From positions 3,108,572 to 3,172,571 of the forward strand of contig NZ_CP022390.1 in NCBI RefSeq assembly GCF_003076515.1: a DNA stretch of 64,000 nt. Direction: 5' to 3'. A program made the translations under genes and the position numbers. The stretch is from Alcaligenes aquatilis. GTDB lineage: Bacteria; Pseudomonadota; Gammaproteobacteria; Burkholderiales; Burkholderiaceae_B. Shown here piece by piece: positions 1,715 to 4,375 of this stretch (position 1 is the first letter of the stretch; every line of letters starts with the position of its first letter). Under the pieces are notes generated by a model. It was not told where the DNA came from. It saw only the letters and a program-made list of their open reading frames with translations, and made no database searches.

Positions 1715-2914
1715 TCAAACTTCGCGTTTGACTCTTGCCTCCAGCAGCATCAAAGCCAGTAAAACCACACTGCTCATTCCTAGTCCAAAGACCACCAGCG
1801 GCCAAACCGTATCCCCATTTAGCAGGGTCACTGCCAACGTACCGATCACGCTAACGATCAGGCTTTCCACGCAAAAGTAGATCGCCACGGCGGAACCGGC
1901 CACGTCGTTGAATTGAGCCAAGGCGCCATTGGCGGTGACGGATACGGTCATCACAATGCCAATGGCGGCCAGCCACATGGGCAGGATAAAGCTGGCAAAG
2001 GAGGGATCCAGCCAGCGTTGTCCGGCTGCCAGTAGCAGGACGGCAAGGGCGATCAAGCCCATGCCGCGTTTCAGGCTCCCGGCTGTGCCCCAGCGAGCAA
2101 CAAAGGTTTTGGACAGGCGGGTGGTGGCAATCATCACCAGGGCAACACTGGCAAAGGCCAGGCTAAAGCCCATTTCCGAATAGCCCGCTTGTCCGATCAA
2201 GACTCGTGGCGCGGTCGAGAAGTAGACAAAAAATGTTCCCATCCCGGTAGAGAAGCCCAGGGTGTAGACCCAAAAGGCCGGGCTTTTGAGTACGGCCAGT
2301 GCGGACTGTTGTGAATGTATTGGTTTGGCAGGTCGCGTTTCTGGCCATTTGAGCAGTGCATGGATCCAGGCCAGCAGTCCTATGCCAGCCAAACTCAGGA
2401 AGATGGCCTGCCACCCACCCGCACGGGCAATCAAAGCACCGGCAATCGGCCCCAAGGCGGGGACAAAAGCCAGGATGGAGCTGAACAGGCTATAGATCAC
2501 TACTCCTTCAGGGCGATCGGCATAGACATCGCGCACTGTGGCAAACAAGGCCACAAGGGTGGCCGAAGCCCCCAGTGCTTGCAGCACCCGAAAACCCACA
2601 AAAGCCCAGGCGGAGCTGGACAGGGCGGCGGCTGTTGAAGCCAGCACGAACAGGGCGGCCCCTGTCAGCAAAACAGGCCGTCGGCCTATGCGATCCGACA
2701 GGGGGCCAAAGATCAGTTGCCCGGTACCCAATAGCAGCATGTACAGGCTAAGGGTCAGCTGGATAACGGCTGGGGTCGTGCCTAGAAGCGCTGGCATGGC
2801 CGGGACGACAGGCAGGTAAATATCCATCCCCAGGGAGGCGAGGATGTCGAAGGGCGCCATCAGCAGCAAGGCGGCTGGCAGCGTAAAAGCCCAGGAAGAG
2901 CGTGAGGAAGACAT
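1715..2914 (-). CDS. CmlA/FloR-type phenicol efflux MFS transporter
   Basis: A 12-helix drug:H+ antiporter of the inner membrane, about 399 residues. The N-terminal segment PFDILASLGMDIYLPVVPAM and the motifs GPLSDRIGRRPVLL (motif A) and LVALFATVRDVYADR closely match the CmlA/FloR branch of the Bcr/CflA family as I remember it; that branch exports chloramphenicol and florfenicol. I chose the ATG at 2914 (MSSSRSSWAF), which aligns with the CmlA start, over an in-frame TTG at 2965. Its ribosome site is weak (GAGTGG about 13 nt upstream), which fits regulated initiation. A nine-codon leader ORF and hairpin lie just upstream. Drug specificity is inferred. Confidence 0.85.
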   Translation of the reverse strand: MSSSRSSWAFTLPAALLLMAPFDILASLGMDIYLPVVPAMPALLGTTPAVIQLTLSLYMLLLGTGQLIFGPLSDRIGRRPVLLTGAALFVLASTAAALSSSAWAFVGFRVLQALGASATLVALFATVRDVYADRPEGVVIYSLFSSILAFVPALGPIAGALIARAGGWQAIFLSLAGIGLLAWIHALLKWPETRPAKPIHSQQSALAVLKSPAFWVYTLGFSTGMGTFFVYFSTAPRVLIGQAGYSEMGFSLAFASVALVMIATTRLSKTFVARWGTAGSLKRGMGLIALAVLLLAAGQRWLDPSFASFILPMWLAAIGIVMTVSVTANGALAQFNDVAGSAVAIYFCVESLIVSVIGTLAVTLLNGDTVWPLVVFGLGMSSVVLLALMLLEARVKREV

Positions 2915-2989
2915 AACAAAATTACCACTCGAAAAAGAAATCGGGCGGCGTCTGTTTGTTATCAATCAGCGGGATTGGAAGTACAGAAC

Positions 2990-3018
2990 GCCGCAACAAG
3001 ACAAGAGCTTGTTGCGGC
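2990..3018 (-). promoter_or_regulatory. Attenuator hairpin of the efflux gene
   Basis: The perfect 11-bp arms GCCGCAACAAG (2990-3000) and CTTGTTGCGGC (3008-3018) enclose a 7-nt loop. On the minus strand the hairpin starts one base after the leader-peptide stop codon. A third copy of CTTGTTGCGGC lies at 3142-3152 (plus strand), a few bases after the predicted transcript start, and could pair with the 2990-3000 arm instead. This is the layout of a translational attenuator. Confidence 0.75.
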
Positions 3019-3048
3019 TTATTCAGTTGCTGACTTAGTGCTCGTCAT
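3019..3048 (-). CDS. Nine-residue leader peptide MTSTKSATE
   Basis: This minus-strand ORF reads ATG to TAA and encodes MTSTKSATE. AGGAG lies 8 nt upstream of its ATG, a far better ribosome site than that of the pump. It resembles the nine-residue leader of cmlA (MSTSKNADK, from memory): same length, M/K/A at positions 1, 5 and 7, and Ser/Thr at 2-4. In cmlA, drug-induced ribosome stalling on the leader opens a hairpin that hides the pump's start region. The same role is inferred here. Confidence 0.7.
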   Translation of the reverse strand: MTSTKSATE

Positions 3049-3160
3049 GTAGACGGCTCCTCACTTAAATAATTTGCTGGGGGGTGTTGGCGAAATGCGG
3101 TACGTGTACCGGTCAGCGCAATCCCCAAGAGGGTATATGGCCTTGTTGCGGCAGTTGCCC

Positions 3161-3190
3161 ATTATAGGGGGAGGTTTTTATGGCTTTGAA
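3161..3190 (-). promoter_or_regulatory. Predicted promoter of leader/efflux transcript
   Basis: On the minus strand a perfect TATAAT (plus 3161-3166) is preceded, at an 18-bp spacer, by TTCAAA (plus 3185-3190), a 4/6 match to TTGACA. The start of transcription would fall near 3154, giving a leader of about 240 nt before the pump ATG. Confidence 0.5.
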
Positions 3191-3223
3191 GCTTCAACCC
3201 AGTATGGCTGTTGCGTTTGTGTC

Positions 3224-3664
3224 CTATCCGGTTTTGGCAAGACGCACTGCCTCGCTGGAGTTGCCGGTCTTGTTCTTCTTCACCCGGATGGCGGCAGCTT
3301 TCAGCAAGCGCTGGAATGTCGGGCATTGCGTATGGTTGGCGGCGGGGCAGTGGGCAGCGTGGCGCAAGCCTTCGCTCATGGCTTTCAGGCGCTTGATGGT
3401 GGCATCCAGTTGATCGGCCTTGGACAGCAGCAATTGCCTGTCTACCTGCGGAGCCCCATCGGGAGGCAGCATGGCCCGTATTTCTTCCAGCGATAAACCA
3501 CCCGCTTGCCCCAGGGCAATCAAGGCCAGTTGATCCAGCACTTGTGGTGTAAAACGGCGTCGTTCACCGGGGGCGCTGACTGCGCTGATCAGGCCCTCCT
3601 TCTCGTAATAACGCACGGTGGAGGAGGGCAAGCCGGTATGTTTGGCGACTTCTGAAATATCCAT
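3224..3664 (-). CDS. MerR family transcriptional regulator
   Basis: A 146-residue regulator with the N-terminal winged helix (ISEVAKHTGLPSSTVRYYEK, residues 3-22), a coiled-coil dimer helix, and a short C-terminal effector tail carrying two cysteines (C106 and C114, within HCPAANHTQCPTF). MerR proteins untwist promoters with over-long spacers. Such a promoter, with exactly 19 bp between -35 and -10 and a dyad in the spacer, lies immediately upstream, pointing at the divergent DUF2938 gene. The two cysteines could bind a metal or sense a thiol-reactive compound; the inducer is unknown. Confidence 0.9.
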   Translation of the reverse strand: MDISEVAKHTGLPSSTVRYYEKEGLISAVSAPGERRRFTPQVLDQLALIALGQAGGLSLEEIRAMLPPDGAPQVDRQLLLSKADQLDATIKRLKAMSEGLRHAAHCPAANHTQCPTFQRLLKAAAIRVKKNKTGNSSEAVRLAKTG

Positions 3665-3674
3665 CGTGTACCTA

Positions 3675-3705
3675 TTGACTTGAAGTTGACTTCAACTTCT
3701 ATGAT
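3675..3705 (+). promoter_or_regulatory. MerR-type promoter with 19-bp spacer
   Basis: TTGACT (3675-3680) and TATGAT (3700-3705) are separated by exactly 19 bp, the hallmark of MerR-activated promoters. The spacer region contains the dyad TTGAAGT-TG-ACTTCAA. It faces the DUF2938 gene and starts 10 bp from the merR start, so the regulator probably controls both. Confidence 0.75.
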
Positions 3706-3744
3706 CACTCAAAACAAGGTGCTTATCAACGGAAAGGATTGCCA

Positions 3745-4236
3745 ATGTTATCGATCAATGAGTGGGTGCAGGTGATGCTGATTGGGGTCGGAGCCACTAT
3801 TTTCATGGACATTTGGGGCTTGATTCAAAAGGCGATGGGCGTTGCTACGCTGAACTACGCCATGGTGGGCCGCTGGGCCGGACATTTGCTGCGTGGCCAG
3901 ATTACGCACAGCCATATCGGCAAGGCTGAACCGATTGCGGGGGAGTCTGCCCTGGGCTGGTTCATTCACTATGCCGTGGGCATTGTTTTCGCCTTTTTGC
4001 TGGTCGCGGTCTATGGCACCGCATGGCTGCAAGATCCCCGCTGGCTGCCCGCCGTCATGGTGGGCACGGTGACGGTCGTGATGCCCTTTTTTGTGATGCA
4101 GCCTGCCATGGGTGCCGGAGTGGCTGCATCGCGTACCCCTACGCCTTGGATCAATCGTTTGCGCAGCGTGCTGACACACGCAATTTTTGGTCTGGGCATG
4201 TACTTTGCGGCCTTGCTGACCAAGCACGTGGCCTAA
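3745..4236 (+). CDS. DUF2938 family membrane protein
   Basis: A 163-residue protein with about four hydrophobic helices, opening with a MLIGVGATIFMDIWGLIQ segment and ending with a GLGMYFAALLTKH helix; this is the DUF2938 pattern. The ATG at 3745 has GGAAAGGA about 7 nt upstream and is preferred to the in-frame TTG at 3739. It is driven by the MerR-type promoter at 3675-3705. The function of the family is not established; the context suggests a membrane response to whatever the MerR protein senses. Confidence 0.8.
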   Translation: MLSINEWVQVMLIGVGATIFMDIWGLIQKAMGVATLNYAMVGRWAGHLLRGQITHSHIGKAEPIAGESALGWFIHYAVGIVFAFLLVAVYGTAWLQDPRWLPAVMVGTVTVVMPFFVMQPAMGAGVAASRTPTPWINRLRSVLTHAIFGLGMYFAALLTKHVA

Positions 4237-4264: not shown

Positions 4265-4375
4265 ATGAGTAGCCTGAAAACCACTGGAACCATCCCGTCT
4301 GGCGTCTATCTGCTTGCCCTGAGCCTGTTTGCCATGGGCAGTGCCGAGTTTCTGATGGGTGGCATCCTGGGCTGA
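4265..4375 (+). pseudogene. Truncated MFS transporter N-terminus
   Basis: A 36-codon ORF contains SGVYLLALSLFAMGSAEFL, the first transmembrane helix of AraJ/YdhP-type sugar or drug MFS exporters, and stops at GGILG where intact members continue into the first loop. In the +1 frame, the following 115 bp (to the stop near 4473) can encode a plausible C-terminal tail (LTLSIEEAQELFLCVSQSQD) of some other protein. I read this as a deletion remnant. It directly follows the DUF2938 gene. Confidence 0.55.

Follow-up and report, generated by a model that had tools for sequence, protein, structure and literature searches.

A probable cmlA-type translational attenuator upstream of a chromosomal CmlA/FloR-family efflux pump gene in Alcaligenes aquatilis

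The chromosome of Alcaligenes aquatilis carries a gene for a phenicol-type efflux pump whose start codon (ATG at 2914, minus strand) has only a weak ribosome site, GAGTGG, and is preceded by a nine-codon open reading frame that stops against a perfect hairpin. This arrangement raises the question of whether the small frame and the RNA around it govern synthesis of the pump, and through which base pairings. Coordinates refer to the window, i.e. the whole 64-kb stretch of DNA that was analysed. An initial annotation, made from the letters of the window, had described a leader, an 11-bp hairpin, a third copy of the hairpin arm, a TATAAT and a weakly initiated pump gene, and all of these elements were found where it had placed them. 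The pump exceeds the curated NCBIfam cut-off of NF033134 (609.8 versus 450 bits) and is thereby a member of the CmlA/FloR efflux pump family; it is neither FloR nor CmlA proper, reaching 596.6 of the 700 bits and 384.6 of the 875 bits set as the respective exception-level cut-offs, and is ~70% identical to plasmid FloR and 50% identical to CmlA1. At E ≤ 1e-60, the pump is present in 8 of the 10 genomes of the genus. The MerR gene upstream of it is also its neighbour in the other seven pump-bearing genomes, in one case (L087) as a 42-aa remnant next to a DUF2938 gene that is shortened too. A GNAT gene lies on the other side in L085, L087, L090, L091 and L002 (the latter representing L088), is fragmented in L089 and was not found in the flanking sequence examined of L086. 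The pump gene is thus chromosomal and has conserved surroundings. The features of the locus are as follows.

3161..3166, minus strand: TATAAT, -10-like element of the presumed leader promoter, seen in the sequence and also in relatives
3142..3152, minus strand: third copy of the hairpin arm, GCCGCAACAAG, private to the window genome, a possible competitor for arm 2
3057..3061, minus strand: AGGAG, ribosome site of the leader, 8 nt before the leader ATG
3019..3048, minus strand: leader frame MTSTKSATE with its stop (ATG 3048-3046, nine sense codons, TAA 3021-3019)
3030-3028, minus strand: leader Ala7, predicted penultimate residue by the stalling rule of PMC11832420
3027-3025, minus strand: leader codon 8, predicted P site by the same rule (PMC11832420)
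3008..3018, minus strand: arm 1 of hairpin P1, GCCGCAACAAG, from sequence and alignment
2983..3000, minus strand: arm 2, of which 3000-2990 (CTTGTTGCGGC) would form P1 with arm 1, and 2994-2983 would form P2 with arm 3
2945..2955, minus strand: arm 3, ACAGACGCCGC, which would pair with arm 2 in P2 and whose 3' part is shared with P3
2941..2948, minus strand: 5' strand of P3, CCGCCCGA, overlapping arm 3
2925..2932, minus strand: arm 4, the 3' strand of P3, TCGAGTGG, holding the weak ribosome site of the pump
1715..2914, minus strand: CmlA/FloR-family phenicol efflux pump, assigned with NF033134

In the reading that we favour, the locus is probably a cmlA-type translational attenuator that responds to phenicols and belongs natively to a chromosomal pump of the CmlA/FloR family. 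Without drug, ribosomes would complete the nine-codon leader and depart, arms 1 and 2 would form P1, and arm 3 would be left to close the weak ribosome site of the pump in P3, a state in which little pump should be made. With a phenicol, a ribosome would stall with Ala7 as the penultimate residue and codon 8 in the P site, covering most of arm 1; arm 2, thus freed, would pair with arm 3 as P2, and the formation of P2 would disrupt P3 and expose the start of the pump gene. We infer the drug-dependent stalling, the order of these events and the rise in pump synthesis from the arrangement of the parts.

The RNA of the window itself is in keeping with such a structure. P1 is a perfect 11-bp hairpin (3018-3008 with 3000-2990) that begins directly after the leader stop, and the segment 3154-2890 folds more stably than 200 of 200 dinucleotide shuffles (z = -4.30), with the P3 stem again appearing in the fold. 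No Rfam family matched 2600-3800 of the window at E ≤ 1. The leader has its own ribosome site 5' of the pump and shows constraint at the codon level: one-base codon differences are synonymous in 58% of cases versus 23% expected, counted over pairs of related sequences, which hence are not independent. Translation of the leader is predicted on these grounds.

The initial annotation had named a lack of conservation of the leader or the hairpin arms in close relatives as evidence that would speak against it. The leader and both arms of the hairpin were found in all eight pump-bearing genomes of the genus, and the TATAAT 5' of the leader also recurs in the other seven. Beyond the genus, the comparison comprised 142 loci (L002-L143) from several collections, one of them the best 80 of 190 loci; the set includes duplicates from the same genome (e.g. 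L003/L090) and many near-identical floR copies. A strict pattern, defined as a short frame with its stop 0-3 nt before GCCGCA, is present in 131 of the 142, and plasmid-borne cmlA1 and floR are likewise preceded by a leader and hairpin. The 11 misses comprise six loci that have lost the element, four without a stop directly before the arm and one (L133) with an altered arm. The element-less loci, five floR copies in Bacteroidota and one further genome (L032, L037, L039, L040, L049 and L136), have been cut before or inside the element, just 5' of the pump ATG, while in L057, L081, L134 and L135 the leader frame continues into the hairpin.

A covariance model of the leader and P1, built from 51 of 55 representative loci and searched with stricter filters, gave 13 matches of at least 44 bits in 398 genomes of the phylum, and the 13 genomes concerned are the 13 that hold the pump. 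Within the genus, the 8 of 10 genomes with a strong match are the eight with the pump. Some of the 13 strong matches fit by construction, since these loci contributed to the model; what carries weight is chiefly that no strong match occurs without the pump. The next-best matches score at most 29 bits. Twelve of these weaker matches were inspected for a similar switch before other genes, with base 1501 taken as the first base of the match, and were judged to be chance matches, coding sequence or hairpins unrelated to the element.

Which stems the arms form was assessed on the 136 loci that yielded a leader-to-start sequence (89 distinct), reduced to 55 representatives of <92% identity, with L106 and L135 excluded for length. 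P1 is paired in 99.0% of cells and 5 of its 11 pairs have changed on both sides. For P2, these values are 90.3% and 7 of 12, and the number of double-change cells, 19, compares with 7.1 in shuffled alignments and 6-12 in slid controls. The compensatory changes thus point to the downstream arm 3 (2955-2945) as the conserved alternative partner of arm 2. The column statistics of P3 are more modest, with 75.7% of cells paired and 25 double-change cells versus 12.3 in shuffles, and double-change pairs and further pair types no more numerous than in shuffles; the column count is weak owing to shifts of register between clades. Single-sequence folds, compared with shuffles of base composition (not of dinucleotides), were hence used besides the column counts. 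In these local folds, at least three of the 5-6 positions of the ribosome site are paired in 55 of 55 representatives, with a mean z of -1.9 (below -1 in 47 and below -2 in 24); the eight folds that are no better than shuffles (z > -1) include several floR versions. RNAalifold, run on the alignment, yielded P1 alone. P2 and P3 would be mutually exclusive, as the bases CCGC of arm 3 serve both, and the comparison together with the local folds indicates a set of alternative stems, one of which closes the ribosome site. The parts of the element, their conservation, the compensatory changes in P1 and P2 and the recurrent fold over the ribosome site can all be read from the aligned loci.

It is unlikely, though worth weighing, that the leader and its stalling work as proposed and act on mRNA stability or transcription elongation rather than on initiation at the pump gene. 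An increase of floR mRNA itself in the presence of drug has been reported (PMC8256890; PMC5890775, citing Lang et al.), which such a mode of action would explain. Against it, the predicted P3 covers the pump ribosome site, and the window sequence has no T run after P1 or P3, and hence nothing that resembles a standard intrinsic terminator. Translational attenuation remains the preferred reading.

The leader peptides were compared with the residues known to promote arrest. Counted back from the hairpin arm, codon -3 encodes Ala in 40, Ser in 11 and Thr in 4 of the representatives, i.e. in all 55; Asp predominates at codon -2 (41, with Thr in 8), as does Lys or Arg at codon -1 (48) and Lys at codon -5 (39). 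According to PMC11832420, chloramphenicol arrests ribosomes best with Ala as the penultimate residue, followed by Ser or Thr, and both a P-site Asp and a Lys at position -3 favour arrest; the cmlA motif KNAD has been employed experimentally as a chloramphenicol arrest peptide (PMC10192921). By its residues, the consensus K-S-A-D|K matches the published arrest motif, with codon -2 placed in the predicted P site. The window leader, K-S-A-T|E, keeps the Lys at -3 and the Ala at the predicted -1 position and has Thr instead of the favoured Asp in the P site. In the eight genomes of the genus the leader reads MTSTKSATE in four and MTSTESATE, with Glu for Lys5, in the other four, and the Alcaligenes leaders deviate at one or two positions from the motif that arrests best. 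Judged by its sequence, the window leader appears to retain the arrest-favouring residues of a cmlA-type attenuator, and it can be described as a variant of the cmlA and FloR leaders, in line with the suggestion of the initial annotation that the cmlA logic is used here with a different peptide.

The effect of a stalled ribosome was modelled with a mask that ends 16 nt beyond the P-site codon, a limit set by the usual size of a ribosome footprint, and that covers 8 nt of arm 1 and all of the RNA before it. In the free RNA from leader to start codon, P1 exceeds a probability of 0.5 in 55 of 55 representatives and P2 in none. With the mask, P2 exceeds 0.5 in 37 and stays at or below it in 18; the start codon becomes more open in 34 and less open in 11, and the ribosome site in 22 and 8, respectively. 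When the leader was masked without reaching arm 1, the ribosome site was unchanged on average (0.23). For the window, masking raises P2 from 0.00 to 0.89, the openness of the start codon from 0.32 to 0.79 and that of the ribosome site from 0.13 to 0.29. A plasmid-type floR version (L022) behaves similarly with regard to P2 (0.00 to 0.95) and the start codon (0.42 to 0.72), its ribosome site being unchanged, and L004, whose arms are shared with another common floR version (L005), shows no change at all.

The full-length folds, which start at the predicted transcript start and charge no cost for closing a helix around the ribosome, argue against a simple picture of the switch. The exchange between P1, P2 and P3 is not reproduced in that of the window, and under the mask arm 2 pairs mainly upstream in five of the eight Alcaligenes loci, i.e. 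the window and, at 0.53-0.88, L085, L086, L088 and L089; it pairs with arm 3 in L087, L090 and L091. The upstream partner in the window is the third copy of the hairpin arm. The initial annotation had assigned the switch to this copy, which would pair with arm 2, enclose the leader and exchange with P1. The proposal has some substance: a count over both strands of the 64-kb window gives three copies of the 11-mer GCCGCAACAAG, all at this locus, versus 0.10 expected, the third exact copy lies near the predicted transcript start, and masking arm 1 raises its mean pairing probability with arm 2 from 0.00 to 0.99. The fold is hence physically possible, and this part of the claim stands. The part that made the third arm (3152-3142) a conserved partner was rejected, as an exact copy is confined to the window among 131 loci, a copy matching at 10 or more of 11 positions occurs in 3 of 131, and the arm is absent from the seven other pump-bearing species of the genus, each represented by one genome. 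In addition, the pump start stays closed in the full-length fold (0.38 free, 0.35 masked), so that pairing of the third arm with arm 2 would damp rather than induce. As the basis of induction, the third arm is very improbable; the folds suggest that, if transcribed, it would damp the response in this one genome.

The least probable account, in which the neighbouring MerR-type regulator controls the pump at its promoter and the leader is a relic, can draw on the adjoining MerR gene, on the imperfect arrest motif of the Alcaligenes leaders and on the mobile floR copies that lack the element, and it is scarcely credible in view of a leader and arms that are nearly unchanged in the genus while the sequence immediately upstream has diverged, a codon -3 restricted to Ala, Ser or Thr, and the retention of the leader in L087 beside the MerR remnant.

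Returning to the cmlA-type attenuator, the arrangement invites comparison with known systems. In Gram-positive attenuators of the cat-86 type, a leader with a Lys-Thr-Asp-Lys stretch on which chloramphenicol stalls the ribosome precedes a resistance gene, and one stem-loop itself covers the ribosome site; the gene is there an acetyltransferase and not a pump. The closest parallel is cmlA1 of Tn1696, an attenuator with two alternate stems that is already known (PMC8876359, citing Stokes and Hall 1991). As described there, it shares with the window a nine-residue leader, a hairpin right after the stop, two alternate stems and a pump of the same family (PMC8876359), and MSTSKNADK is followed by the same arms in L082. 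The two leaders are identical at 3 of 9 residues. The ribosome site of cmlA1 is strong (AAGGAG) and closed by TCCTT, whereas that of the window is weak and closed by CCGC, and cmlA1 is an integron cassette whereas the window locus is chromosomal.

For floR, a nine-residue leader and an 11-bp hairpin have been reported as a putative attenuator that does not overlap the ribosome site (PMC5890775), and a later paper reports the same lack of overlap, calls the role of the hairpin unclear and describes induction of floR mRNA (PMC8256890). The floR leader (MGNSKSADK in L083) agrees with that of the window at 4 of 9 residues, the hairpin is likewise of 11 bp, and arms 3 and 4 can be aligned. The two floR papers describe the first hairpin alone (PMC5890775, PMC8256890); arms 3 and 4 are added here, and the fold over the ribosome site is less distinct in the floR versions. 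These conserved downstream arms, which could link the hairpin to the ribosome site and which bear compensatory changes, could be a new element, and are a candidate for the missing link between the floR hairpin and its ribosome site. The spread of the element through the native pump family and the apparent agreement of the leaders with the arrest motif are likewise contributed by the present comparison. In searches that most subscription journals lay outside, no publication on this locus was recognized from title or start of abstract among the matches listed, and no paper was found on a cmlA leader peptide in Alcaligenes. Since floR is a widespread gene for florfenicol and chloramphenicol resistance, it is of value that arms 3 and 4 make the question of its induction directly testable with natural sequences.

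The distribution of the element suggests that drug-triggered control is native to the chromosomal pump family and was not acquired with mobility, and the composition of the leaders suggests that selection on them has converged on the residue preferences established by structural work on chloramphenicol. A broader reading traces the switch to a single ancestral drug-sensing RNA of four arms, present in the family before plasmids and integrons captured its genes. On this reading, the peptides, held at the arrest motif over 51 distinct leaders (their start codons come from a script, and some few may be misplaced), record a long natural exposure to phenicol-like arrest, the floR hairpin acts at a distance, releasing or holding the arm that frees the ribosome site rather than touching that site, and the third arm may damp the response here. 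We find this plausible and are nonetheless slightly more inclined to doubt than to accept it. The confidence given to the full mechanism and the lower confidence given to this family-wide reading both take account of those floR versions for which modelling shows no switch.

Several minor observations were made at these loci. In Comamonas testosteroni (L004), the cmlA1 leader MSTSKNADK and the cmlA1 upstream sequence stand 135 nt before the ATG of a FloR-type pump with FloR-type arms; judged by its sequence, this locus is a natural cmlA1/floR hybrid joined at the conserved hairpin arm. In L085-L088, the 5' untranslated region between the predicted transcript start and the leader lies within an inverted repeat (TGTCGCG / CGCGACA) that the window lacks. 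After the DUF2938 gene, the window has a 36-codon frame (4265-4375, plus strand) which ends after a stretch resembling helix 1 of an MFS transporter and which may be what is left of a gene. Finally, a long hairpin lies 3' of the pump at 1547-1595 (TGTCCGTAAT...ATTACGGACA) and is the sole match to its pattern in the genome, and two hairpins similar to it lie 3' of the pump in L088.
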